The notes beneath the pieces are model-generated. The model was not told the DNA's origin, did not search any database, and was given only the letters and a program-made list of their open reading frames with translations. From Gammaproteobacteria bacterium (lineage in GTDB: Bacteria; Pseudomonadota; Gammaproteobacteria; Xanthomonadales; Wenzhouxiangellaceae): DNA of 33,723 nt. The translations under genes and the position numbers were made by a program. This document shows, in pieces, positions 5,831 to 33,723 of the stretch. Numbering within the stretch: position 1 is the stretch's first letter; every line of letters begins with the position of its first letter. Where the stretch lies: assembly GCA_009908385.1 (NCBI GenBank), contig JAAAPE010000072.1, positions 1 through 33,723 on the forward strand, in the 5' to 3' direction.

Positions 5831-7009
5831 ATGGACGTTGCCGTGGCGAACAACTGGCGCGCGATCGTCGAGCAGGCCGTCGGGTTTCGGCGGGCCCTGC
5901 ATCGTGCCCCGGAGCTGACCTGGGCCGAGCGCGATACCGCCGAGGCGATCCGGGCCCAGCTCGCCGCGCTCGGCATCGGCTGGCGCGCCTGTGCCGAAAC
6001 GGGCACGGTAGCGACGCTGGCTCCGAACGCCGATGGGCGGCATCTGGCGCTTCGTGCCGACATCGATGCGCTCCCGATCACCGAAGACAGCGGCGTGGAC
6101 TGGGCCTCGCAGCGCGAGGGCTGCATGCACGCCTGCGGGCACGACGGCCATGCCGCGACCCTGCTGGCGGCCGCGGCCTGGCTCAAGGCCCGGGAAGACG
6201 AGCTGCCGGGCCCCGTGACCCTGCTGTTCCAGCCGGCCGAGGAGGGCGGCCACGGCGCGAAGGCGATGATCGACGACGGCGCGCTCGAAGGCGTCGAGGC
6301 GATCTTCGGTTGGCACAACTGGCCGGCGATTCCCTTCGGCCGGGCGGCCTGCCCGGACGGCGCGGTGATGGCCGGTAACGGCACCTTCGAGATCGAACTC
6401 GACGGGCAGGGCGGGCACGCCAGCCAGCCCGAGGCCTGCCGCGATCCGGTACTGGCCGCCTCGGCCATCGTCACCGCCCTCCAGCAGGTCGTCAGCCGGC
6501 GAATCTCGCCCCAGGCCCCGACCGTACTGAGCGTCACGAGCATCCGCGCCGACGGCGGCGCCCCGACCGTCATTCCCGATCGCGCCGAGCTGGGCGGCAG
6601 CTTCCGCCTGGGTGACCCCGAGACGCGGGAAGCGATGGGCGAGCTGATCGAGGATATCGTGAGGAACACCGCCGCCGCGCACGGTGTCCACGCGGTTGTG
6701 AGCATTCATTCGCGCTACGACGCGACGGTCAACCACGCCGATCAGGCAGCGCCCTTCCGCGACGCCCTGATCGCCGAAATGGGCGATGAAGCGCTCGAGT
6801 CCGGCCTGAAGACGCCGATCATGGCCTCGGAGGACTTCAGCTACTATCTGAAGGCGGTCCCCGGCGCATTCGCGCTGATCGGCGCCGACGACGGGCAAGG
6901 GCATCAGCACCCCTGCCACAGCCCCAAGTACGACTTCAATGACCGGTTGATCGATCAGGTCGGCCGAATCTACGCCCGAATCGCTGGCTGTCCAGTGAAG
7001 GAGCAATAG
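5831..7009 (+). CDS. doeB2: N-acetyl-diaminobutyrate deacetylase, M20 amidohydrolase type (DoeB2-like)
   Basis: A 392-residue M20-family amidohydrolase (HipO/AbgB-like). Metal-binding signatures are DIDALPITE, CMHACGHDGHAATLL, LLFQPAEEGGHGAKAM and HSPKYDFND near the C-terminus. A dimerisation lid with GQGGHASQPEACRDP lies in the middle. By context the likely job is removal of the acetyl group from N-alpha-acetyl-2,4-diaminobutyrate, the product of ectoine ring opening, giving diaminobutyrate plus acetate in the cytoplasm. The start at 5831 (MDVAVANNW) follows a GGGAG about seven bases upstream; an in-frame ATG at 5780 exists but adds 17 non-family residues. It is first in the operon, 51 bases ahead of the transaminase. 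The substrate is inferred from the neighbours; the M20 fold alone would also fit hippurate or other N-acyl amino acids. Confidence 0.75.
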   Translation: MDVAVANNWRAIVEQAVGFRRALHRAPELTWAERDTAEAIRAQLAALGIGWRACAETGTVATLAPNADGRHLALRADIDALPITEDSGVDWASQREGCMHACGHDGHAATLLAAAAWLKAREDELPGPVTLLFQPAEEGGHGAKAMIDDGALEGVEAIFGWHNWPAIPFGRAACPDGAVMAGNGTFEIELDGQGGHASQPEACRDPVLAASAIVTALQQVVSRRISPQAPTVLSVTSIRADGGAPTVIPDRAELGGSFRLGDPETREAMGELIEDIVRNTAAAHGVHAVVSIHSRYDATVNHADQAAPFRDALIAEMGDEALESGLKTPIMASEDFSYYLKAVPGAFALIGADDGQGHQHPCHSPKYDFNDRLIDQVGRIYARIAGCPVKEQ

Positions 7010-12247: not shown

Positions 12248-13159
12248 ATGCAACAAATACTCGCCTGGTTCGATTCTCGGCAGCGCTTGCGCGACGACAA
12301 CGACGATTCACGTCGCGTCGATTGGTTCCGCATCATTCCCTTCATCGGGCTCCACCTGGCCTGCCTGGGCGTCGTTTTCGTCGGCGTTTCAGCGACGGCC
12401 GTGGTGGTTTTCGCGCTCAGCTATTTCCTGCGGATGTTCGCCATCACCGCCTTCTACCACCGCTTTTTCTCGCATCGCACATTCCGCACGAGCCGCCCGG
12501 TACAGTTCCTGTTCGCGCTCATCGGTGCCTCGGCGACCCAGCGCGGACCGCTCTGGTGGGCGGCGCACCACCGCCACCACCACCGCCACGCCGATACCGA
12601 CGAAGACGTGCATGCGCCCCGCCACGGTTTCTGGTGGAGTCACATGGGCTGGTTCCTCTGCCGCGAGAACTTCGAAACGCGCGCTGATCAGATTCCCGAT
12701 CTCGTCGTCTATCCCGAACTGCGCTGGCTGGATCGCTACGACCTCATCGTACCCGTGTTCTATGCGGTGTTCCTGTTCGGCCTGGGGGCGGCGCTGAACT
12801 GGCTCGCTCCGGGCCTGGAAACCAGCGCCTGGCAGCTGCTGGTCTGGGGTTATTTCGTGTCGACGGTCGTACTGATCCACGTCACCCTGACGATCAATTC
12901 GCTGGCGCACATCTGGGGCAGCCGCCGCTACGCCACCCGTGACGACAGCCGCAACAATTTCTTCCTGGCCCTTCTCACGCTGGGCGAAGGCTGGCACAAC
13001 AATCACCACCACTTCCCCGGGTCGGCCCGTCAGGGATTCTACTGGTGGGAACTCGACATCAGCTACTACGTGCTGAAGATGATGAGCTGGGTGGGGCTGG
13101 TCAGCGGTCTCAAGCCCGTGCCGGCCCGGATTCGAGAGGCACGACGGATCGGTTCATGA
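12248..13159 (+). CDS. Membrane acyl-CoA/acyl-lipid desaturase
   Basis: A 303-residue integral membrane di-iron desaturase of the delta-9 (stearoyl-CoA desaturase/DesC) type. The three histidine boxes are HRFFSH (71-76), HHRHHHRH (107-114) and HNNHHH (250-255), and the conserved RGPLWWAAHH lead-in precedes the second. Hydrophobic stretches near 30-65 and 165-220 fit the usual four-helix layout. It would introduce a double bond into an acyl chain at the cytoplasmic face of the membrane, which makes the unsaturated substrate for the methyltransferases downstream. It is first in the operon, and its stop overlaps the ATG of the FAD protein by the ATGA arrangement. The start lacks a ribosome binding site; see the control region upstream. 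Confidence 0.9.
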   Translation: MQQILAWFDSRQRLRDDNDDSRRVDWFRIIPFIGLHLACLGVVFVGVSATAVVVFALSYFLRMFAITAFYHRFFSHRTFRTSRPVQFLFALIGASATQRGPLWWAAHHRHHHRHADTDEDVHAPRHGFWWSHMGWFLCRENFETRADQIPDLVVYPELRWLDRYDLIVPVFYAVFLFGLGAALNWLAPGLETSAWQLLVWGYFVSTVVLIHVTLTINSLAHIWGSRRYATRDDSRNNFFLALLTLGEGWHNNHHHFPGSARQGFYWWELDISYYVLKMMSWVGLVSGLKPVPARIREARRIGS

Positions 13160-14397
13160 ATATCGCGATTGTCGGTGCCGGCGTATCCGGGCTCTACGCG
13201 GCCTGGCACCTGGCGGGTCGCCACGAAGTGACCGTCTTCGAGGCCGAGGACCGGCTCGGCGGACATGCCGACACCCAGGTCGTCGAGGATGATGGACAAA
13301 CCCGCTGGATCGACACGGGGTTCATCGTCTTCAACCGCCTGCATTACCCGTTGCTGACCGCCTGGTTCGAGGCGCTCGGGGTCGAATCCGAATCGACCGA
13401 CATGAGCTTCGGCGTCTCCGACACGGTCAGCGGCATGTGCTATAACGCGAGCACGCTCGGCCGACTCTACTGCCAGCGGCGGAATCTCTTGAGCCCGCGC
13501 TTCCACGGCATGGTGCTCGACATCGCGCGTTTCTACCGGCGCGCGCCCAGCCTGCTGGAGGAGATCGACGAGCAGGTCACGCTGGGCGAGTGGCTCGCGG
13601 CCAGCGGCCTGGGCGAGATGTTCGCGACCCGGCACATGCTGCCCATGGCCTCGGCGCTGTGGTCGGCCCCGATGGGCGACGTCACCCGCTTTCCGATGAA
13701 GCATCTGCTGGCATTCATGGACAACCACACCATGCTCACCCTCGGGGAGCGGCCGTCCTGGGAAACGGTGCGCGGTGGAAGCCGCGAGTACGTCGGGGCG
13801 GCCAGTCGCTGCGACGCGCAGTTCGTCGTCGGCACGCCGGTCCGATCGGTCGAGCGCAGGGAAGCCGGTGTGGTCATCCGCACCACGTCGGATGAAGCCC
13901 GCTTCGATGCCGTGATCATGGCTTGTCATTCCGATCAGGCGCTGGAGATTCTGGCGGACGCCAGCCCGGTCGAGCGCTGCGTCCTTTCGGCCGTGGACTA
14001 CCAGCCCAACGAGACGGTGTTGCACACCGACGCTTCCCTGCTGCCCGAGCGGCCGGCAGCGCGCGCGGCCTGGAACGTTCGTATCGACGGCCAGGCGCAC
14101 AACCAGTGCCGTGTCTCGTATTACATGAACCTGCTGCAGAACATCGACAGCCGGCAGCACTTCATCGTCTCGCTCAACCAGACCGATCGCATCGATCCGG
14201 ACCGGATCCTGGTGCGCCGCCACTATGCGCACCCGGTGTTCACGCCCGAAGCGGTGGCCGCCCAGGCGCGCTGGAACGACATCAACGGCCTGCGGCGAAC
14301 CTGGTTCTGCGGCGCCTGGTGGGGCTGGGGCTTCCACGAGGACGGTGCGCGCAGCGCCAGGCGCGTCATCGACGATATCGAGGCCCGCCATGGATAG
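13156..14397 (+). CDS. FAD/NAD(P)-binding amine-oxidase-like protein
   Basis: A 413-residue flavoprotein with a dinucleotide-binding N-terminus, AIVGAGVSGLYAAWHLAG (4-21), followed by VFEAEDRLGGHADT and IDTGFIVFNRLHYPLL. The C-terminal FAD-contact region ends in WFCGAWWGWGFHEDGARSA. This is the protein that accompanies DUF1365 and a CFA-type methyltransferase in many bacteria, including Mycobacterium tuberculosis (Rv0449c-Rv0448c-Rv0447c). Family knowledge suggests a redox step on a methylated unsaturated fatty acid: reduction of a methylene group in tuberculostearate formation, or dehydrogenation in furan fatty-acid formation. Which of these applies here cannot be read from sequence. It overlaps both neighbours (ATGA upstream, eight bases downstream), so it is tightly coupled. 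Confidence 0.88.
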   Translation: MNIAIVGAGVSGLYAAWHLAGRHEVTVFEAEDRLGGHADTQVVEDDGQTRWIDTGFIVFNRLHYPLLTAWFEALGVESESTDMSFGVSDTVSGMCYNASTLGRLYCQRRNLLSPRFHGMVLDIARFYRRAPSLLEEIDEQVTLGEWLAASGLGEMFATRHMLPMASALWSAPMGDVTRFPMKHLLAFMDNHTMLTLGERPSWETVRGGSREYVGAASRCDAQFVVGTPVRSVERREAGVVIRTTSDEARFDAVIMACHSDQALEILADASPVERCVLSAVDYQPNETVLHTDASLLPERPAARAAWNVRIDGQAHNQCRVSYYMNLLQNIDSRQHFIVSLNQTDRIDPDRILVRRHYAHPVFTPEAVAAQARWNDINGLRRTWFCGAWWGWGFHEDGARSARRVIDDIEARHG

Positions 14398-15139
14398 CGC
14401 CGTAGCGACCGGACGCGTATGGCACCAGCGCCTGGCGCCCAGGCCCCATCGCTTCGCCTACCGCACCAGTTACACGCTCATCGACCTCGACCGGGTCGAG
14501 GCGATCTTCGCTCGCAGCCGGCTGTGGTCGATCGAGCGCCGGAATCTCGTCAGCTTCAGGCGCAGTGACTTCCTGGGCCCCCATGATCGTCCACTGCGCG
14601 AGGCGGTCGTCGAAAGGGTGGCGGAGGTCACCGGCCGACGGCCGGGCGGCCGGATCTTCCTGCTTGCGCATCTGCGCCAGTGGGGGCAGTGTTTCAATCC
14701 GGTCAGCTTCTACTTCTGTCTCGACGAGTCAGGCCGCCCCGATGCCATCGTCGCCGAGGTCCACAACACGCCCTGGAACGAACGTCATGCCTACGTGCTC
14801 GACTGCGGCGACCAGGAGGGCCCCGAATACCGTTTCGGCTTCGACAAGGCTTTCCACGTCTCGCCCTTCATGCCGATGTCGCTGCGCTACCACTGGCGCC
14901 TTCGCCTGGAAGCTGATCAGTTGCACGTTCACATGCGCCTGACCGACGCGGGCCGACAATGTTTCACGGCCGGCATGCGCCTGGCGCTGGAGCCGCTGAC
15001 CGCGGCATCCATGCGCCGGATGCCGCTCAAATTTCCACTGATGACGGCGAAGGTCGTCGCGGCAATCTACTGGCAGGCCTTCAGGCTGTGGCTCAAGAAG
15101 ACGCCGTTCCACTCCCATCCGGACAAGGTGACGCAATGA
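14390..15139 (+). CDS. DUF1365 family protein
   Basis: A 249-residue protein that matches DUF1365 over its whole length: FAYRTSYTLIDLD near the start, QCFNPVSFYFCLD around residues 98-110, EVHNTPWNERHAYVLD, and FHVSPFMPMSLRYHW. The C-terminal quarter (KFPLMTAKVVAAIYWQAFRLW) is hydrophobic and may touch the membrane. The biochemical role of the family is not firmly known; it always travels with the FAD protein and a CFA-type methyltransferase, so it probably acts in the same fatty-acid modification. The start ATG lies eight bases inside the previous gene, and its stop overlaps the next ATG. Confidence 0.9.
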   Translation: MDSAVATGRVWHQRLAPRPHRFAYRTSYTLIDLDRVEAIFARSRLWSIERRNLVSFRRSDFLGPHDRPLREAVVERVAEVTGRRPGGRIFLLAHLRQWGQCFNPVSFYFCLDESGRPDAIVAEVHNTPWNERHAYVLDCGDQEGPEYRFGFDKAFHVSPFMPMSLRYHWRLRLEADQLHVHMRLTDAGRQCFTAGMRLALEPLTAASMRRMPLKFPLMTAKVVAAIYWQAFRLWLKKTPFHSHPDKVTQ

Positions 15140-16422
15140 CGCACTCGGACAGAACACTCGAAGCGCCCGATGCCGGGTCCGGCAGCGGCCTGGACCGCTG
15201 GCTTCGTGCCCGTGTGCTTGCTCGGCTGGGTTCGCTCGAGCAGGGGCGGCTGATCATTCAGGATGCCGACGGGGAGTACACCCTGGGCAATCCCGACGAT
15301 GCGCTCAGCGCGACCGTGGTCGTCCGCGACTTGCGCTTCTGGCGGCTGATGGCCAGCGGCGGCAGCGTCGGCGCGTCCGAGGCCTGGATGGCCAGTCTCT
15401 GGGACAGCCCCGATCCGGTGGCCGTGGTTCAGGTGCTGACCCGCAACCGCCAGGCGCTCGACGAGATGGAAACCGGGGCCGCGCGGCTGTTCAACGTCGT
15501 GCTCGGCCTCTGGCACGCCTTCAACCGCAACAGCCTCAAGGGCAGCCGTCGCAACATCGCCGCCCACTACGACCTGGGCAATGAATTCTTCGCCGCCTGG
15601 CTGGACGAGCGCATGATGTATTCCAGCGCGCTGTTCCTCGACGAGGACGAAACGCTCGAACAGGCGCAGTTCAACAAGCTCGATCGCATCTGCCGCAAGC
15701 TCGATCTCGGCCCCGACGACCACCTGCTGGAGATCGGCACCGGTTGGGGCGGGCTGGCGATTCATGCGGCCGCCGAGTACGGATGCCGGGTGACGACCAC
15801 CACCATCTCGCGCGAGCAGTACGATCACGCCCGTCTGAAGGTGCGCGAGGCCGGTCTCGAGGATCGCGTGACCCTCTTGGCCCGCGACTACCGCGCACTC
15901 GAGGGGCGGTTCGACAAGGTCGTGTCGATCGAGATGATCGAGGCGGTCGGTCACCACTACCTGGATACCTACCTGGAGAAGATCGATTCCCTGCTCAAGC
16001 CCGACGGGCTGGCACTGATCCAGGCCATCACGATCGAGGACTACCGCTATGCCAGCGCCCTGAAGACCGTCGACTTCATCAAGCGCTACATCTTTCCGGG
16101 TGCCTTCATTCCGTCGGTCAGCGCCATCACGGCCTCGATGGCCCGAGCGAGCCGGCTCGGACTGGTCGAGCTGGCCGACTTCGGCGCCAGCTACGCCCGC
16201 ACCCTCGCGGCCTGGCGGGAACGTTTCGAGTCTCGCTGGGAAGACATCCGCGAAATGGGTTTCGACGAGACCTTCCGCCGCCGCTGGTTGTGGTACCTGG
16301 CCTATTGCGAGGGCGGCTTCCGCGAGCGGGCGATCAGCGACGTGCACCTGCTGCTGGCGGGTCCCGGCTGGCGGCCGGCCTCCGAAACCGGTCTGAGCGG
16401 CGGAAGCGAGCTGATTGCATGA
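15136..16422 (+). CDS. CFA-type SAM-dependent fatty-acid methyltransferase (UfaA-like)
   Basis: A 428-residue member of the cyclopropane-fatty-acid synthase superfamily. It transfers a methyl group from S-adenosylmethionine to the double bond of a phospholipid acyl chain. Visible features are AHYDLGNEFFAAWLD, the SAM motif LLEIGTGWGG (197-206), SIEMIEAVGHHY with Glu266, and the hallmark KRYIFPGAFIPS. Where E. coli CFA synthase has the catalytic LHTIG, this protein has IQAITIED with Gln296 in the histidine position. That is typical of the UfaA-type branch, which makes methyl- or methylene-branched rather than cyclopropane products. The start ATG overlaps the DUF1365 stop. True cyclopropane synthase activity is less likely but not excluded. 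Confidence 0.9.
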   Translation: MTHSDRTLEAPDAGSGSGLDRWLRARVLARLGSLEQGRLIIQDADGEYTLGNPDDALSATVVVRDLRFWRLMASGGSVGASEAWMASLWDSPDPVAVVQVLTRNRQALDEMETGAARLFNVVLGLWHAFNRNSLKGSRRNIAAHYDLGNEFFAAWLDERMMYSSALFLDEDETLEQAQFNKLDRICRKLDLGPDDHLLEIGTGWGGLAIHAAAEYGCRVTTTTISREQYDHARLKVREAGLEDRVTLLARDYRALEGRFDKVVSIEMIEAVGHHYLDTYLEKIDSLLKPDGLALIQAITIEDYRYASALKTVDFIKRYIFPGAFIPSVSAITASMARASRLGLVELADFGASYARTLAAWRERFESRWEDIREMGFDETFRRRWLWYLAYCEGGFRERAISDVHLLLAGPGWRPASETGLSGGSELIA

Positions 16423-16985
16423 CACGCGATTTCTGGATCAACCAGGGCCTGTTCCAGCTCTGCTGGCCGGCCTGCGTGATCGGCGCCTCGGCCGGCGTGG
16501 CCGGGTGGACGGGTACGCTGGTGGTGGCCAGCCTGGCGTTCTGGCAGCTGCACCCCAGGCGTCGTCATCCCAACGACTGGTCCATGATCGGGTTGTGCCT
16601 GGCGATCGGATTCCTGCTCGATTCCCTGTGGGTGAAGGCCGGCCTGCTCGAATTCGCCATGCCCTGGCCCTCCTCGCAGTTCGCGCCCTTCTGGATTCTT
16701 CTGCTGTGGCTGGCGCTGGCGCTGGTGCTCAATCACTCGATGAGCGTGTTCAAGGGGCGTTTGCTGCTGATCGGAATCCTCGGCGGCATCGGTTCGCCGA
16801 TGTCCTACTACGCGGGCTCGCAGTTCGGCGCCGTCGAATGGGCCGCGCCCGCCTGGCAGGTCGTTCTGGCCACGGGGCTGAGCTGGGCGCTACTGCTGCC
16901 GTTGCTGTTCTGGCTGGCGCGCCGCCCGTCCGGTCGCGACCGGGGCCGACAGACCCGAACCCTCTCACGGAGCGCCACACCATGA
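16419..16985 (+). CDS. DUF2878 integral membrane protein
   Basis: A 188-residue, strongly hydrophobic protein with about four to six membrane helices (for example residues 10-45, 50-70, 85-110, 118-140 and 150-172). Recognisable pieces are LHPRRRHPNDWSMIG, GFLLDSLWVKAGLLEF and GGIGSPMSYYAGSQFGAV, as expected for DUF2878. The family is found almost only beside CFA-type methyltransferase clusters, so it is likely an accessory membrane component of the same pathway; its biochemical role is unknown. Starts in an ATGA overlap with the preceding gene and ends in another with the next. Confidence 0.85.
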   Translation: MTRDFWINQGLFQLCWPACVIGASAGVAGWTGTLVVASLAFWQLHPRRRHPNDWSMIGLCLAIGFLLDSLWVKAGLLEFAMPWPSSQFAPFWILLLWLALALVLNHSMSVFKGRLLLIGILGGIGSPMSYYAGSQFGAVEWAAPAWQVVLATGLSWALLLPLLFWLARRPSGRDRGRQTRTLSRSATP

Positions 16986-18013
16986 AGCCCATCGAGCTGG
17001 CCGAGCGGGGCCTCGCCCCGGACTGGATCATCCGGCGCGGCATTCGCGCGCTGCTCAGGCGCCGGCTGCGCGAGGAGCGGGCCGACGATCCCGAGGCCCA
17101 GGCCGAGCGCTACCAGGTCCTGATGGACGAGCTGGCCGAATCGGCCATCGCCATCGAGACCGATGCCGCCAACGAGCAGCACTACGAAGTGCCCGCCGCC
17201 TTCTACCAGCAGGTTCTGGGCTACCGCCTCAAGTACTCGAGCGCGCTCTGGCCGCCGGGTGTGAGCAGCCTGGACGACGCCGAAACGGTGATGCTCGAAC
17301 AGACCTGCCGGAATGCCGACCTGACCGACGGACAGGAGGTGCTCGAGCTGGGCTGCGGCTGGGGGTCGCTGACGCTCTGGATGGCCTCGAATTACCCCGC
17401 CAGCCGGATCACCGCGGTGTCCAATTCGGCCTCCCAGCGCCGTCACATCGAATCACGCGCCGCCGAGCTCGGCCTGAGCAACGTCTCGGTGATTACCTGC
17501 GACGTCAACGAACTGGCGCTGGAGCGGCAGTTCGATCGCGTGGTGTCGGTCGAGATGTTCGAGCACGTGCGCAACTATCGCCAGCTGCTCGCTCGCGTCG
17601 CAGGCTGGATGAAACCCGACGCGCGCCTGTTCGTCCACATCTTCTGCCATCGTTACCTCGCCTATCCCTTCGAGACCGAGGGCGACGGCAACTGGATGGG
17701 CAAGTACTTCTTCACCGGCGGCCTCATGCCGGCCGCGGATACGCTGTTACACTTCGCCGATGACGTGGTCATCGAACGCCGCTGGCTCTACTCCGGCGAA
17801 CACTATGCGAAAACCGCACGCGCCTGGCTCGACAACCTGGACGATCGCTCCCGCCAGGTGCGTTCGGTCATGCGCGAAGCCTATGGCGACGACGACGCCG
17901 CGCTCTGGCAGCAGCGCTGGCGGATCTTCTTCATGGCCTGCGAAGAGCTGTTCGGCTTCGAGCGAGGCCGGCAGTGGCTGGTGGGCCATTTCCGATTCCG
18001 CAAGGCCGGATGA
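16982..18013 (+). CDS. Second CFA-like SAM methyltransferase (coclaurine N-methyltransferase-like)
   Basis: A 343-residue class I methyltransferase of the CFA synthase superfamily, different from the one upstream. Motifs: NEQHYEVPAAFYQQVLG, the SAM-binding VLELGCGWGS (120-129), VSVEMFEHVRNY, and LFVHIFCHRYLAYPFE with His219/His223, followed by DGNWMGKYFFTGGLMPAAD. The latter part closely follows the pattern of plant coclaurine N-methyltransferases, a known resemblance of this bacterial group. In this operon the substrate is much more likely a fatty acyl chain, perhaps a second methylation after the first enzyme. It begins in ATGA overlap with DUF2878 and its stop overlaps the kinase start. 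Function beyond methyl transfer is inference. Confidence 0.85.
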   Translation: MKPIELAERGLAPDWIIRRGIRALLRRRLREERADDPEAQAERYQVLMDELAESAIAIETDAANEQHYEVPAAFYQQVLGYRLKYSSALWPPGVSSLDDAETVMLEQTCRNADLTDGQEVLELGCGWGSLTLWMASNYPASRITAVSNSASQRRHIESRAAELGLSNVSVITCDVNELALERQFDRVVSVEMFEHVRNYRQLLARVAGWMKPDARLFVHIFCHRYLAYPFETEGDGNWMGKYFFTGGLMPAADTLLHFADDVVIERRWLYSGEHYAKTARAWLDNLDDRSRQVRSVMREAYGDDDAALWQQRWRIFFMACEELFGFERGRQWLVGHFRFRKAG

Positions 18014-19425: not shown

Positions 19426-20403
19426 ATGCAACAAGCCACCGCACGGGCCGGTGCGAATATCGCGCTGGTCAAATACTGGGGCAAGCGTGACCAGCGGCTG
19501 AACCTGCCGGCGGCCGGTTCGATCTCGATCACGCTGGCGGGGCTGGAGACCCGCACGACCGTCACGCCCGATCCCGCGCTGACCGCCGACCGGTTCGTGC
19601 TCGACGGTGTCGAGCAGCCGCTCGCCCGCGTCGGCGCCTTGCTCGACCTGATGCGCGAGCTGGCCCGGGAAACGGTGGCCTGCCGGGTCGAGAGCGACAA
19701 CAATTTCCCCACCGGCGCAGGCCTGGCATCCTCGGCATCGGGCTTCGCCGCACTGGTGGTTGCAGCCGCCGGGGCGCTGGGGCTGGAGCTGTCGAAACGC
19801 AAGCTTTCCGAGCTGGCCCGCCTGGGATCGGGCTCCGCGGCTCGCTCGATCTTCGGCGGGTTCGTGGAAATGGCGGCCGGGCAACGCGACGACGGCGCTG
19901 ACGCGGTGGCACATCCCCTGGCGGATCCCCCGGACTGGCCGCTGGAGGTCGTGGTGGCCGTGACCGATGCCGGCGGCAAGGCCGTCGGTTCGCGCGACGG
20001 CATGAACCATACCATGCAGACCTCGCCCTACTACCGAGCCTGGGTCGACTCGGTCGGTGATGACCTGGCCGAGGCCAGGTCGGCGATTGCCGGTCGCGAT
20101 TTCGAACGCCTGGCCGCGGTCAGCGAACACAGCGCCCTGAAGATGCATGCGTCGATGCTGGCGGCCCGGCCCGGGCTGGTCTACTGGAATCCTGCCACGC
20201 TGGCCTGCCTGCACGCCGTCCGCGCCCTGCGCGCCGAAGGCACGGGCGTGTTCTTCACCGTCGATGCCGGCCCCCAGGTCAAGGCCGTGTGCCGGCCCGG
20301 CGAGGGCGAGCGCGTGGCCGGCGTGCTACGGGGACAGCCGGGCGTGCGCGAAGTCATCGTGACCGGGCTGGGACCCGGCGCGGCCGAGGTGCCCGGGTCG
20401 TGA
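19426..20403 (+). CDS. mvaD: Diphosphomevalonate decarboxylase
   Basis: A 325-residue GHMP-superfamily enzyme that converts mevalonate-5-diphosphate, with ATP, to isopentenyl diphosphate, phosphate and CO2. Diagnostic motifs: ANIALVKYWGKRD near the N-terminus, the phosphate-binding NNFPTGAGLASSASG (92-106), GSGSAARSIFGGFVEM, and TVDAGPQVK with Asp280 near the C-terminus. It is first in the mevalonate operon and overlaps the next gene by four bases (GTGA). The ATG at 19426 has no Shine-Dalgarno sequence; CATACA at 19410-19415 with TTATCA at 19387-19392 (17-base spacing) could form a promoter yielding a leaderless message, which is a weak call. The enzyme acts in the cytoplasm. Confidence 0.95.
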   Translation: MQQATARAGANIALVKYWGKRDQRLNLPAAGSISITLAGLETRTTVTPDPALTADRFVLDGVEQPLARVGALLDLMRELARETVACRVESDNNFPTGAGLASSASGFAALVVAAAGALGLELSKRKLSELARLGSGSAARSIFGGFVEMAAGQRDDGADAVAHPLADPPDWPLEVVVAVTDAGGKAVGSRDGMNHTMQTSPYYRAWVDSVGDDLAEARSAIAGRDFERLAAVSEHSALKMHASMLAARPGLVYWNPATLACLHAVRALRAEGTGVFFTVDAGPQVKAVCRPGEGERVAGVLRGQPGVREVIVTGLGPGAAEVPGS

Positions 20404-21461
20404 CGCGTTGGGTCGCGTCGGCGCCGGGCAAGGTCGTTCTTCTGGGCGAGTACGCGGTGCTCGAGGGCGCACCGGCCCTGGTCCAGGCCGTGGACCGGCG
20501 CTGCCGGGTCGAGCTGACGGGCTGTTCGGCGCGCGATTGCCGCGTGGAGGTGCCGCAGCTCGGCATTCCCCCGGTGGGATTTCGTCTCGGCGAGGACGGG
20601 CGGCCGCTCTGGCCGGGTGACCTGGCGCCCGAATTCGCCCGCACCGCCGCGCTCATCGACGCCGTCCTGGAACATACCGGCGAGCGCGGCGGTCGGATCG
20701 TTCCGTTCAGGTTGCGCATCGACACCGGCGAGCTGTTCGACGGCAGTCCGCGGCATCCGCTCAAGCTCGGGCTGGGCTCGAGCGCCGCGTCGGCCGTCGC
20801 CATCGATGCGGCGCTGCAGGCGGCTTTCCTCGGGGAGCCGGCCGACGAGTCCGCCGAGCGCCGCGTCGAACGTCTGCTGGTCCCCGGCCGGGCCGCCCAG
20901 GGCAACGCAGGCAGCGGCATCGACCTGGCCGCCAGCCTGTGCGGCGGCACGCTCGCCTACCGCCTGGACGGGGAGCGCGTCGAGATCCGGCCCGTGGTGC
21001 TGCCCGAGGGCATCGAGTGCTGCTTCATCTGGGCCGGCGAGCCGGCCTCCACCGGCGCTCTGCTGGCTGCCTGGCAAGGGCTGCGGGAGGCCTCCCCGCG
21101 GGAATACGGCCGCATCCTCGGCGAGATGCAGGCCGTCGCGGCGGCCGGCATCGACGCGGTCGATCACGCCGATGCGGCGAGAATGCTGGCTTGCTGGTCG
21201 GATTACGGCGAGATAATGGGTAAAATGAACGACGTGATCGCGCGCGAAGTGGTCACCGTCGAGCACCGGCTGGCCGGCGCCCTGGCCCAGCTCCTCGGCG
21301 GCGTATACAAGCCCTGCGGTGCCGGCGGAGGCGACCTGGGACTGGCCGCCTCCGACGACGCGCGGTTCGTGGCACGGATGCGCGAACTATGCGACAAGGC
21401 CGGCCTTGCGACCCTGCCGATCCGGCCCGGCGAGCAGGGCGTTTGCGTAACCAGAGAGTGA
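20400..21461 (+). CDS. Phosphomevalonate kinase (GHMP family)
   Basis: A 353-residue GHMP kinase that most likely phosphorylates mevalonate-5-phosphate to the diphosphate, filling the step between the mevalonate kinase and decarboxylase encoded beside it. The N-terminal SAPGKVVLLGEYAVLEG is typical of the family; the ATP loop HPLKLGLGSSAASAVA lies about 119-134; GSGIDLAASLCGG and the C-terminal KPCGAGGGDLGLA are also present. GTG start at 20400, overlapping the mvaD stop, with GAGGTG upstream. Eight bases separate its stop from the fusion gene. A different GHMP specificity is possible in principle, but the pathway context is strong. Confidence 0.88.
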   Translation: MTRWVASAPGKVVLLGEYAVLEGAPALVQAVDRRCRVELTGCSARDCRVEVPQLGIPPVGFRLGEDGRPLWPGDLAPEFARTAALIDAVLEHTGERGGRIVPFRLRIDTGELFDGSPRHPLKLGLGSSAASAVAIDAALQAAFLGEPADESAERRVERLLVPGRAAQGNAGSGIDLAASLCGGTLAYRLDGERVEIRPVVLPEGIECCFIWAGEPASTGALLAAWQGLREASPREYGRILGEMQAVAAAGIDAVDHADAARMLACWSDYGEIMGKMNDVIAREVVTVEHRLAGALAQLLGGVYKPCGAGGGDLGLAASDDARFVARMRELCDKAGLATLPIRPGEQGVCVTRE

Positions 21462-21469
21462 CCCGATAG

Positions 21470-23749
21470 ATGGAACGATCCCGGATACCCCGTTTCTACA
21501 AGATGAGCGTGCCCGAGCGGGTGCGCACGGTGCGCGATCGCGGCCTCGTGAGCCCGGACGATTATCGCGACCTGCAGTCCGGGCGGCACACGCTCTCGGT
21601 GCAGCTGGCCGACAAGATGATCGAGAACGTCATCGGCGTGATGGGCCTGCCCGTCGGCCTCGGTCTCAATTTTCTGATCAACGACAAGGAATACGTCGTG
21701 CCGCTGGTGGTCGAGGAGCCCTCGATCGTGGCCGCACTGTCGTCGGCCGCAAAACTGGCGCGCGCCTCGGGCGGGTTCCGGGTCGAGAGCACCGAGCCGC
21801 TGCTGATCGGCCAGGTGCAGATCGTCGACGTGGCCAACCCGGCACGCGCCAAGGCTGCGCTGCTGCAGCGCAAGTACGAGATTCTCAACCTGGCCAACAG
21901 CCTGCATCCGAAGATGATCGCCCGGGGCGGCGGCGCACGGGATCTCGAGGTCTTCGTCCATCCGTCCCAGGGGCTGGGCGGCGACATGGTGGTCGTGCAC
22001 CTGTTGGTCGATACGCGAGACGCCATGGGCGCCAACCTCGTCAACACCATGTGCGAGGGCGTGGCCTCGCTGGTGGAGAACATCGCCGAGGGCCGCGTCT
22101 TCCTGCGCATCCTGTCCAACCTGTCCGATCGGGCCCTGGTGCGCGCGCGCGTGCGCATCCCGCTCGCGCAGCTGACCGGCAAGGGCTTCGACGGGGAGCA
22201 GGTGCGCGACGGCATCATCGTGGCCAACGATTTCGCCCGGATCGACCCGTACCGGGCGGCGACCCACAACAAGGGCATCATGAACGGCATCGACGCGGTG
22301 GCCCTGGCGACCGGCAACGACTGGCGCGCCATCGAGGCGGGTGCACATGCCTACGCCGCACGCGGCGGCCGCTACGCCTCGCTGACGCAGTGGTACAAGG
22401 ACGACAACGGCGACCTGATCGGCGAGCTGGAGATTCCGATCAAGGTGGGCACCGTGGGCGGTCCGCTTCAGACCAATCCCACCGTGGCCCTGAACATGCG
22501 CCTGCTGGGGGTCGAGTCCGCGCGCGAGCTGGCCGAGGTCATGGGCGCGGTCGGTCTGGCGCAGAATTTCTCGGCGATTCGCGCGCTGGTGACCGAGGGC
22601 ATCCAGCAGGGCCACATGACCCTGCACGCGCGCTCGGTCGCGACGGCCGCCGGCACGCCGCCGGATCTGTTCGACACGGTGGTCGAGCGCCTGATCGCTT
22701 CCGGCGAGATCAAGATCTGGAAGGCCGAGGAGATCATCGCCGAAGTGCGCGCGCAGGCAGAGCCCTCGACCGTCAGGTTGCCCGAAGCCGAAGGAACGGA
22801 GCGGCAGGACACCCTCGAAGGCGAGAAGCTGGGCGCCGGGCACGGCAAGATCATCCTCCTCGGCGAACACGCCGTAGTGTACGGCCGACGCGCCATCGCG
22901 GCGCCCATCCCGCTGGCCATCCAGGCCCGCGTCGAGGATGCCCGGGAAGGCGTGGAAATGATCATCCCGCGATGGGGCGTGGAACAGCGGATGGACTTCC
23001 AGTCAAAGCACCCGCAGTCCTTCGCCCGCTCGATGGCGCGGGTGCTTGAAGCCCTGGGCCTGCAGGGCCGGGGCATGAGGATCGAGGTCTTCCCCAACGT
23101 GCCGCGGGCCATGGGCCTGGGCGGATCGGCGGCCCTGGCGGTCGCCGTGATTCGGGCCATGGATGCGCATTTCTCGCTGGGCCTGAGCGATGAACGCATC
23201 AACGAACTGGCCTTCGAGAGCGAGAAGGTTGCCCACGGCACGCCGTCGGGCATCGACAACACGCTCGCCACCTGGGGCGAGTTCATGCTGTTCAGCAACG
23301 GCGAGAATCCCCGGCGCGAGGTGATCGAGGTAGCCGAGCCCCTGCCGATGGTGATCGGCATGAGCGGTGTCGAGAGCCTCACGGCGCGCACCGTGGCCCG
23401 GGTCCGCGAGGCGTGGAAGAGGAATCCGAAGCTCTACGAGCGCATCTTCGACGAGATCGACATGCTCGCGGGCAACGGACTCGACGCGCTCCAGACCGGC
23501 GACTACGAGACCCTGGGGGAGCTGATGAACATCTGCCAGGGGCTGCTCAACGCCATGCAGGTTTCCAGCTGGGAGCTCGAGGAGCTGGTGCAGGTCGCGC
23601 GCAACAACGGCGCGGTCGGCGCCAAGCTCACCGGCGGCGGCGGTGGTGGCTCCATCATCGCGCTGTGCCCCGACGACAGCGCGCGCGTGGCCCGGGCCAT
23701 TCGCGAAGCCGGCTACAACGCCCTGGAGGTGCAGATCGGTGGCACTTGA
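21470..23749 (+). CDS. HMG-CoA reductase (class II) fused to mevalonate kinase
   Basis: One uninterrupted 759-residue frame carries two enzymes. Residues 1 to about 430 are a class II HMG-CoA reductase: EEPSIVAALSSAAKLAR with catalytic Glu83, DAMGANLVNTMCEG, HNKGIMNGIDAVALATGND with Lys268 and Asp284, and QQGHMTLHAR with His382. These match Pseudomonas mevalonii residues 83, 267, 283 and 381 almost exactly. A charged linker of about 25 residues follows. Residues about 453-755 are a mevalonate kinase: GAGHGKIILLGEHAVVYG, the ATP loop AMGLGGSAALAVA (547-559), GTPSGIDNTLA with catalytic Asp596, and KLTGGGGGGSIIAL. The protein would turn HMG-CoA into mevalonate-5-phosphate in two consecutive steps. 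No stop or frameshift interrupts the junction, and both halves keep their catalytic residues. The neighbours supply the remaining steps to IPP and DMAPP. Confidence 0.96.
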   Translation: MERSRIPRFYKMSVPERVRTVRDRGLVSPDDYRDLQSGRHTLSVQLADKMIENVIGVMGLPVGLGLNFLINDKEYVVPLVVEEPSIVAALSSAAKLARASGGFRVESTEPLLIGQVQIVDVANPARAKAALLQRKYEILNLANSLHPKMIARGGGARDLEVFVHPSQGLGGDMVVVHLLVDTRDAMGANLVNTMCEGVASLVENIAEGRVFLRILSNLSDRALVRARVRIPLAQLTGKGFDGEQVRDGIIVANDFARIDPYRAATHNKGIMNGIDAVALATGNDWRAIEAGAHAYAARGGRYASLTQWYKDDNGDLIGELEIPIKVGTVGGPLQTNPTVALNMRLLGVESARELAEVMGAVGLAQNFSAIRALVTEGIQQGHMTLHARSVATAAGTPPDLFDTVVERLIASGEIKIWKAEEIIAEVRAQAEPSTVRLPEAEGTERQDTLEGEKLGAGHGKIILLGEHAVVYGRRAIAAPIPLAIQARVEDAREGVEMIIPRWGVEQRMDFQSKHPQSFARSMARVLEALGLQGRGMRIEVFPNVPRAMGLGGSAALAVAVIRAMDAHFSLGLSDERINELAFESEKVAHGTPSGIDNTLATWGEFMLFSNGENPRREVIEVAEPLPMVIGMSGVESLTARTVARVREAWKRNPKLYERIFDEIDMLAGNGLDALQTGDYETLGELMNICQGLLNAMQVSSWELEELVQVARNNGAVGAKLTGGGGGGSIIALCPDDSARVARAIREAGYNALEVQIGGT

Positions 23750-24323
23750 ACAGGCCGGTCCCGAGCGCGTGGTTTCGTCCGACAGTGAGGAGCTGATCCT
23801 CGTCGACGGCGGTGATCGTGAAATCGGCACGCTGTCGAAGGGCGAATGCCACGACGGCGACGGCATTCTCCATCGCGCCTTCTCGGTGTTCCTGTTCGAT
23901 CCTGCCGGTCGGCTGCTGGTCCAGCGACGCGCTCGCGAGAAGCGTCTGTGGCCGCTCTACTGGGCCAACAGTTGTTGCTCGCATCCGCGCGCTGGCGAGG
24001 AGATGGGCGAGGCGACGCTGCGCCGGACCCAGGAGGAGATGGGCGTCACCGCCGAACTCGAATTCGTCTACAAGTTCCAGTACCAGGCGAATTACGGCGA
24101 TCTCGGCGCCGAACACGAACTGTGCTGGGTCTACATCGGGCGGACAGCCGAAGGTGCCGTGCGCCCCAACCCCTCCGAGATCGCCGAATGGCAGTTCCTG
24201 CCGCCCGAGGCGGTCGACGCGCTGATCGCCGACGAAACCGCCGAAGTCGCCCCTTGGTTTCGCCTGGAATGGCGCGAACTTCGGCGGGCGCACTGGGCGC
24301 TCGTTGAGCGCCTGCTTGGCTGA
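23739..24323 (+). CDS. idi: Isopentenyl-diphosphate delta-isomerase, type 1
   Basis: A 194-residue Nudix-fold isomerase that interconverts IPP and DMAPP. Motifs: GILHRAFSVFLFDPAGRLLV, the active-site NSCCSHPR (Cys79, Cys80, His82), TLRRTQEEMGV, EHELCWVYIG and EIAEWQFLP. The start is a GTG at 23739 preceded by GGAGGT eight bases upstream; it overlaps the fusion gene by eleven bases. The frame stays open further upstream, but only inside the fusion gene. It is the last gene of the mevalonate operon and is followed by a repeat block, not by an obvious terminator. A mevalonate pathway requires an isomerase to make DMAPP, so its presence fits. Confidence 0.95.
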   Translation: MALEQAGPERVVSSDSEELILVDGGDREIGTLSKGECHDGDGILHRAFSVFLFDPAGRLLVQRRAREKRLWPLYWANSCCSHPRAGEEMGEATLRRTQEEMGVTAELEFVYKFQYQANYGDLGAEHELCWVYIGRTAEGAVRPNPSEIAEWQFLPPEAVDALIADETAEVAPWFRLEWRELRRAHWALVERLLG

Positions 24324-24334
24324 TGCCGTCTGCT

Positions 24335-24510
24335 GGTGCGTCGGTGGTCGGTGGTCAGTGCGTCAGTAGTCAGTAGTCAGTGGTCAGTGGTCAGTAGTCA
24401 GTCGTCAGTAGTCAGTCCACGGACTACAGGCGCACAGACGCACGGACCACGGACGCACGGACCACAGACGCACCGACCACAGACGCACCGACCACAGACG
24501 CACCGACCAC
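24335..24510. repeat. Heptad-repeat block, imperfect palindrome, copy 1
   Basis: The left half (24335-24417) consists of 7-base units of the type GTCAGTG/GTCAGTA/GTCGGTG. The right half (24418-24510) consists of roughly complementary units (CACAGAC, GCACCGAC) in 7-8 base steps, including three near-identical 15-base periods. The halves are loosely inverted: GGTGCGTCGGTGGT at 24335-24348 pairs with ACCACAGACGCACC near 24491-24504 with one mismatch, and GTAGTC/GACTAC flank the centre. It lies between two convergent genes (idi and the response regulator). A second copy is at 28831-28960. The plus strand is open across it by chance only. Confidence 0.85.
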
Positions 24511-24521
24511 GTCCCCGCCCT

Positions 24522-28830: not shown

Positions 28831-28960
28831 CGGTGGTCGGTGGTCGGTGGTCAGTAGTCAGTGGTCAGTGGTCAGTGGTCAGTGGTCAGTGGTCAGTGGC
28901 CCGGTGCACCGACGCACCGACCACAGACGCACCGACGCACCGACGCACCGACGCACAGCC
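28831..28960. repeat. Heptad-repeat block, imperfect palindrome, copy 2
   Basis: The same architecture as the block at 24335-24510. The left half (28831-28900) starts with GGTGGTCGGTGGTC and continues as about nine GTCAGTG/GTCAGTA units. The right half (28904-28960) consists of CACCGAC and CACAGAC units in steps of 7-8 bases. The turn lies near CCCGG at 28900. Unlike copy 1 it lies between two genes on the same strand (rhlB and gspC). It is followed by a C/G-rich run up to about 28982. Confidence 0.85.
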
Positions 28961-33313: not shown

Positions 33314-33465
33314 GAAAAGCAAATACGAAATTCGAAGCACCAAATCCGAAACAAATCCGAAGTTCGAATGACCGAAACGCTTGCCATTTCATCGACCCCG
33401 AACAATGACTCGCGCGCCGCGATGCAGCGATTCAGCCCGCTGATGCGCGTTTCGAATTTGTTGCC
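33314..33465. other. Intergenic stretch with an inverted copy of the tandem repeat
   Basis: No gene is seen. Positions 33333-33351 are an exact 19-base reverse complement of 33672-33690 inside the tandem array downstream, and the surrounding 33320-33362 is an imperfect reverse complement of the repeat-unit junction. The remaining sequence up to 33465 shows nothing I can name. Because the gsp operon would normally continue with gspF, this block interrupts an expected operon. Confidence 0.7.
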
Positions 33466-33723
33466 TCGGATTTCGAATTTCGGCCTGAAAACGACTGCCT
33501 TGAAACCAGTTGCCCTGGCCGGTAGCACGCCCGACACCTCGCAGCCGGCCGGCACACCCATTTCGGATTTGGTGTTTCGGATTTCGAATTTCGGCCTGAA
33601 AACGACTGTCTTGAAACCAGTTGCCCTGGCCGGTAGCACGCCCGACACCTCGCACCCGGCCGGCACACCCATTTCGGATTTGGTGCTTCGGATTTCGAAT
33701 TTCGGCCTGAAAACGACTGCCTT
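33466..33723. repeat. 111-bp tandem repeat, at least 2.3 units
   Basis: The sequence starting TCGGATTTCGAATTTCGG at 33466 recurs at 33577 and 33688, so the period is exactly 111 bases; two complete units and part of a third are visible, and the array runs off the window. Units differ at only a few positions (for example CTGCCTT/CTGTCTT and GCAGCC/GCACCC). 111 is divisible by three, so the minus strand reads open as a 37-residue repeat, but nothing suggests it is a gene. Unit junctions contain AT-rich FEIR-type sequence, and the middle is GC-rich (GCCGGCCGGCACACCC). Confidence 0.9.

Follow-up and report, generated by a model that had tools for sequence, protein, structure and literature searches.

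The window, by which we mean the whole stretch of 33,723 nucleotides analysed here, derives from a member of the Wenzhouxiangellaceae (Gammaproteobacteria) and carries a mevalonate-pathway operon in the order MDD-PMK-[reductase-kinase]-IDI, with the following features.

19426 to 20403, + strand: diphosphomevalonate decarboxylase (MDD); TIGR01240, 281 bits (cut-off 171)
20289 to 21461, + strand: putative phosphomevalonate kinase (PMK) ORF; TIGR01220, 106 bits (below the cut-off of 166)
21470 to 23749, + strand: fused HMG-CoA reductase-mevalonate kinase gene; single frame from ATG to stop, 759 codons plus stop
21470 to 22753, + strand: class II HMG-CoA reductase domain, residues 1-428; TIGR00532, catalytic residues, Pseudomonas mevalonii HMG-CoA reductase (HMGR) as best PDB chain
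Residues about 378-430, + strand: C-terminal flap of the reductase domain
22754 to 22828, + strand: poorly conserved linker, residues about 429-453, with predicted disorder at 432-450
22829 to 23746, + strand: mevalonate kinase domain (GHMP), residues 454-759
23643 to 24323, + strand: isopentenyl-diphosphate isomerase type I (IDI) ORF; TIGR02150, 153.6 bits (cut-off 106)

The fused gene is present in one copy in the window's genome. Its product matches the NCBIfam model for HMG-CoA reductase, TIGR00532, with 414 bits over residues 1-387 (cut-off 260) and that for mevalonate kinase, TIGR00549, with 256.6 bits over residues 458-732 (cut-off 163), and the Pfam domains found are HMG-CoA_red, GHMP_kinases_N and GHMP_kinases_C. 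Judged by these scores, each half taken alone matches its family far above chance. TIGR00532 also matches 25 of 25 diverse members. The closest solved chain for the reductase half is P. mevalonii HMGR (residues 4-428 aligned), and the domain has the class II fold with its C-terminal flap; the closest chains for the kinase half are the mevalonate kinases of Leishmania major and Methanosarcina mazei (32-33% identity), which stand alone, unlike the fused domain.

We collected 121 distinct full-length fused proteins, 119 of them at below 98% and 85 at below 90% identity, after dropping 7 of 128 sequences that fell outside 720-799 residues. Residues E83, K268, D284 and H382, which we take to be the catalytic Glu, Lys, Asp and His of the reductase, are invariant in all 121, and so are K460, E466, H467, G549, G551, S553 and D596 of the kinase half, which presumably form the GHMP loop, provide the catalytic Asp and bind substrate. 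An earlier note on this DNA had proposed one open frame encoding a complete reductase and a complete mevalonate kinase, and had placed Glu83, Lys268, Asp284, His382 and Asp596; the family and domain matches, the residues and the fold bear this out, with all five at those positions. The protein is a true reductase-kinase fusion: family scores, catalytic residues and fold all show both halves to be intact.

The PMK ORF, which ends 8 bases upstream of the fused gene, matches PDB entry 3k17 (E 4e-18) and is divergent relative to its family; its similarity begins only at residues 42-44, so its start is uncertain, as is that of the IDI ORF, where similarity begins at residues 47-51. In a scan of named genomes, from which the best 80 of 552 relatives were kept, the MDD-PMK-fusion-IDI order recurs in 49 of the 80 loci, IDI adjoins the fusion in 71 and an HMGS-like gene lies inside the fetched flank in 9.

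Elsewhere in the window, the region upstream of the operon (12248-18013) encodes a fatty-acid desaturase, a flavin amine oxidase, a DUF1365 protein and two CMAS-type methyltransferases, possibly a cluster for a modified membrane lipid. Tandem repeats lie at 24340-24511, 28833-28956 and 33450-33723, with a 111-base unit at the contig end; downstream of the operon, units resembling CACAGACGCACCGAC adjoin the 7-mers GTCAGTG/GTGGTCA at two sites.

The linker and the proposed bifunctional enzyme

Between positions 427 and 457 the linker measures 12 to 34 residues across the 121 proteins and is in frame throughout. Its commonest residue per column averages 42%, whereas the two domains average 78% and 70%. 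The earlier note had called it charged, which holds in part: over the 121 proteins it is 18% acidic and 11% basic. AlphaFold predicts two ordered domains with pLDDT below 50 at 432-450 and a pTM of 0.57, the mutual placement of the domains carrying no confidence, and in the predicted structure the kinase follows immediately after the flap helices (378-430). The earlier note had suggested that joining consecutive reactions in one chain could channel mevalonate. A linker that is variable, poorly conserved and predicted to be disordered fits tethering rather than a tunnel, and together with the lack of a confident domain placement this does not favour a built-in tunnel. Class II reductases form dimers or higher assemblies, so the fused particle should carry several kinase domains, a quaternary arrangement that we infer.

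The protein is very probably a bifunctional biosynthetic enzyme that would convert HMG-CoA to mevalonate 5-phosphate, both activities being predicted from the two halves. The N-terminal class II reductase would reduce HMG-CoA to mevalonate, most likely with two NADPH, and the C-terminal GHMP kinase, connected through the disordered linker to where the mobile flap domain of the reductase ends, would phosphorylate mevalonate with ATP. The PMK, MDD and IDI of the operon would then complete the route to IPP and DMAPP, replacing the MEP pathway in most carriers. Likely benefits are a fixed 1:1 supply of the two enzymes and a high local concentration of kinase, which would pull mevalonate onward in a reversible, CoA-releasing reaction; a flexible tether alone makes no channel, and the effect we infer is one of proximity.

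The position of the kinase directly behind the flap also allows it to be read as a tethered scaffold or regulator that senses, for instance, ATP or feedback inhibitors on behalf of the reductase through the His382-bearing flap. We consider this unlikely, as a disordered and variable linker makes transmission of force or signal improbable and the kinase has retained all its catalytic residues. Somewhat less likely again is that an internal start or cleavage of the protein gives a free mevalonate kinase as the working form. In-frame start codons accompanied by an SD-like core occur around the linker in 28 of the 121 genes and an in-frame ATG in 30, and one genome, G036, has an additional stand-alone kinase immediately downstream of the fusion. 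Against this, 91 of the 121 genes have no in-frame ATG there, and the linker region of the window offers only GTG (codon 426) and TTG (codon 437), neither with an SD-like core. A conserved internal start for a free kinase, searched for around the linker in all 121 genes, was rejected. We retain the bifunctional enzyme as the preferred reading.

Cofactor preference and pathway context

The cofactor helix of the window protein reads H146-P-K148-M-I-A-R152 (HxKxxxR). Among the fused proteins His146 occurs in 119 of 121 and Arg152 in all 121, position 148 is K, N, R or Q, and Asp146 occurs in none. According to a 2026 preprint citing Miller and Kung (PMC13370337), NADH enzymes carry Dx(V/L)xxxL and NADPH enzymes (H/Y)xSxxxR; the window protein lacks the former. 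The catabolic-type group has Asp146 in 14 of 14 members, V, L, M or A at 148 and Leu152 in 12 of 14, and the other unfused class II reductases have A, L or I at 146 and Arg152 in 13 of 13. In the HMGR of R. pomeroyi, replacement of Asp154 by Lys raised NADPH activity 53.7-fold (PMC12292504); this Asp154 aligns with window position 146, counting from a start 17 codons upstream, and the E91 numbering in the same paper confirms the register. On the strength of that result and of His146/Arg152 in place of Asp146/Leu152, the fused reductase is predicted to use NADPH, with position 148 not fitting the Ser of the NADPH motif. A change from NADH to NADPH is one possible direction; given Arg152 in 13 of 13 other class II reductases, together with A, L or I at 146, Arg152 may instead be ancestral, with the NADH motif derived.

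That the enzyme is catabolic and runs backwards, from mevalonate to HMG-CoA, is suggested by the 'degradative' name of its best family, TIGR00532, and by its nearest clade, the P. mevalonii type. We regard it as very unlikely. The cofactor motif differs from the catabolic type, the gene neighbours are PMK, MDD and IDI besides the fused kinase itself, the MEP enzyme IspG is replaced in most carriers, and HMG-CoA lyase stands beside the fusion in none of the 80 named loci within the fetched flanks (best 80 of 552 relatives), against 2 of 14 catabolic-type loci within a short flank. As the lyase lies in the flank of only 2 of these 14, the "catabolic" label itself rests mainly on the NADH motif and the family name.

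We scored IspG by PF04551. It is absent from all 28 genus genomes examined and from two more genomes with the fusion, whereas the remaining 16 of that sample have it. In the order sample of 299 genomes, 2 have the fusion and IspG, 53 the fusion only, 233 IspG only and 11 neither; IspG is thus missing in 53 of 55 fusion genomes vs 11 of 244 without the fusion, which, although the counts come from related genomes and are not independent, indicates that the fusion serves isoprenoid synthesis. Among 50 named fusion genomes, hand-picked from the 80, IspG scored above cut-off in 8, and 42 had none above cut-off. In most carriers the fused enzyme is thus part of the only route to IPP visible in the genome, and replacement of the MEP pathway among carriers is not universal (IspG is present in 2 of 55 fusion genomes of the order and in 8 of the 50 named ones). 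In one of these 8, a Natronospirales MAG (G999, contig C13, 44078-45231; L210), IspG is broken up by frame changes and stops; it has the appearance of a MEP gene in decay, with MAG error as the alternative.

HMG-CoA synthase was recognisable by a PF01154 search in 12 of 28 genus genomes. In five genomes of the genus (G003, G011, G018, G019 and G022; loci L168 and L169 for two of them) the fusion is present and IspG absent, and HMG-CoA synthase was not found with either PF01154 or the window genome's own synthase as query. Of 19 genomes searched for HMG-CoA lyase, 18 have it above cut-off, and all 13 genus loci retrieved with the lyase contain a thiolase-HMG-CoA lyase gene pair; the thiolase gene directly precedes the lyase gene at L239:5894-7988 in the window's genome and at L238:5920-8162 in G018. 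This incidence of the lyase would fit leucine breakdown as a source of HMG-CoA.

Distribution and origin of the fusion

The earlier note had treated the fusion as possibly singular; instead, the architecture is widespread. Of 61 relatives surveyed, 41 had a match, and full-length uninterrupted copies occur throughout the genus at 80-93% identity as well as in other genera and families. The order sample (299 genomes) contains 52 full-length fusions, 3 partial ones (G008, G132, G190) and 1 reductase alone. The class sample (369 genomes) gave 28 matches, namely 9 full-length fusions including that of the window, 1 contig-end piece and 18 reductases alone, and the phylum sample (349 genomes) gave 11, fused only in the window's own genome. 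By group code, at least 19 genera bear the fusion, 13 in the order and 6 more in the class. Among named genomes the best 80 of 552 relatives are all fused, one being cut by a contig end, and include Wenzhouxiangella, Dyella, Rhodanobacter, Nevskia, Dokdonella and one Marinobacter record. The fusion also occurs in MAGs labelled Thermoanaerobaculia, KSB1, Melioribacteraceae, Calditrichaeota and Nakamurella (putative binning); 56 plasmid records match, none over 80% of the fused protein. Many genera related to Wenzhouxiangella have kept the fusion.

That two separate genes were joined by a sequencing or assembly error, for which the fragmented source genome (155 contigs, 85% complete) might speak and which the earlier note had named in advance, at about 22760-22835, as its refuting case, is ruled out by 121 relatives with in-frame linkers of differing length, isolates of Wenzhouxiangella, Dyella and Rhodanobacter among the carriers and single-contig genomes (G018, G026, G027) that contain the fusion. 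At 18 loci where the junction was inspected, 16 have the kinase after the reductase, all in frame and free of stops; at the remaining two, L042 and L050, no kinase follows the reductase.

A careful tree was built from 59 reductase domains (33 fused, 14 catabolic-type and 12 other class II), omitting the fragments L154 and L158, L197 (a copy of L153) and the distant L050 and L157; only L157 was retained for a quick tree. In the careful tree each of the three groups lies on one side of a branch (support 99/99, 99/95 and 100/100, respectively), and in the quick tree, rooted on L157, the fused group falls next to the catabolic-type one. No unfused member, such as fission would leave, falls inside the fused clade in either tree (33 fused and 26-27 unfused rows), a check that drew on the best 80 of 552 relatives and so selects against unfused members. 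Pairwise distances of the reductase and kinase halves correlate with r = 0.91, indicating that the two halves travelled together, and the kinase half is distant, at 24-30% identity, from the separate kinases of the other mevalonate-using Gammaproteobacteria searched. The best reading of these trees and distances is that reductase and kinase were joined once and then inherited as a unit, which has apparently also passed between lineages as such. The second, separate kinase of G036 (L043, about 5967-6890, minus strand) is 55% identical and groups with the fused kinases in a quick tree (support 81-88, with a long-branch warning); by sequence it looks like a copy of the kinase half.

Relation to known fusions and significance

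The thiolase-HMG-CoA reductase fusion MvaE of Enterococcus is a known precedent within the pathway. MvaE joins a thiolase, an earlier and non-consecutive step, on the N-terminal side, whereas the window protein joins the kinase of the next step on the C-terminal side and contains no thiolase domain by Pfam. The fused reductase resembles P. mevalonii HMGR (class II, NADH, catabolic) in catalytic residues, flap and 51-55% domain identity, its clade being the nearest; the latter is single-domain, without a kinase, and has D146/L152 where the fusion has H146/R152. IspDF, described in PMC13001223 as a natural isoprenoid-enzyme fusion common in bacteria, belongs to the MEP pathway and links non-consecutive steps, whereas the window fusion links consecutive steps of the mevalonate pathway. 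A different fusion, HpnCD, appears in PMC5462960, and a passage of PMC7691419 distinguishes Wenzhouxiangella from Marinicella by the mevalonate pathway and squalene synthase, naming no fusion there. The earlier note was aware of no described reductase-kinase fusion; likewise, we found no description of a natural one in the open-access literature searched, subscription papers lying mostly outside that search. To our knowledge, both enzymes and the idea of pathway fusion are known, and the joining of reductase to kinase is new.

It is tempting to speculate further, though we think it rather improbable as a whole, that in one bacterial lineage the fusion turned a reversible catabolic stock into a one-way NADPH reductase, the flap-tied kinase trapping mevalonate as its phosphate before reoxidation, and that a portable four-gene cassette repeatedly displaced the MEP pathway, fed by leucine in synthase-less Wenzhouxiangella. 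If true, Wenzhouxiangella without HMG-CoA synthase would represent a leucine-to-isoprenoid route in protein-eating bacteria.

Read as a bifunctional biosynthetic enzyme, the protein would join the committed step of the mevalonate pathway to the one that follows in a form already provided by nature, directly useful for engineering terpenoid production, in which accumulation of free mevalonate and supply of the kinase are common concerns. Current annotation hides the fusion, as NCBI's best model is the reductase named 'degradative'. The fusion also marks one event that can be traced in the switch of Gammaproteobacteria from the MEP to the mevalonate pathway: a single tree suffices to follow the gene, its cofactor motif and IspG loss.
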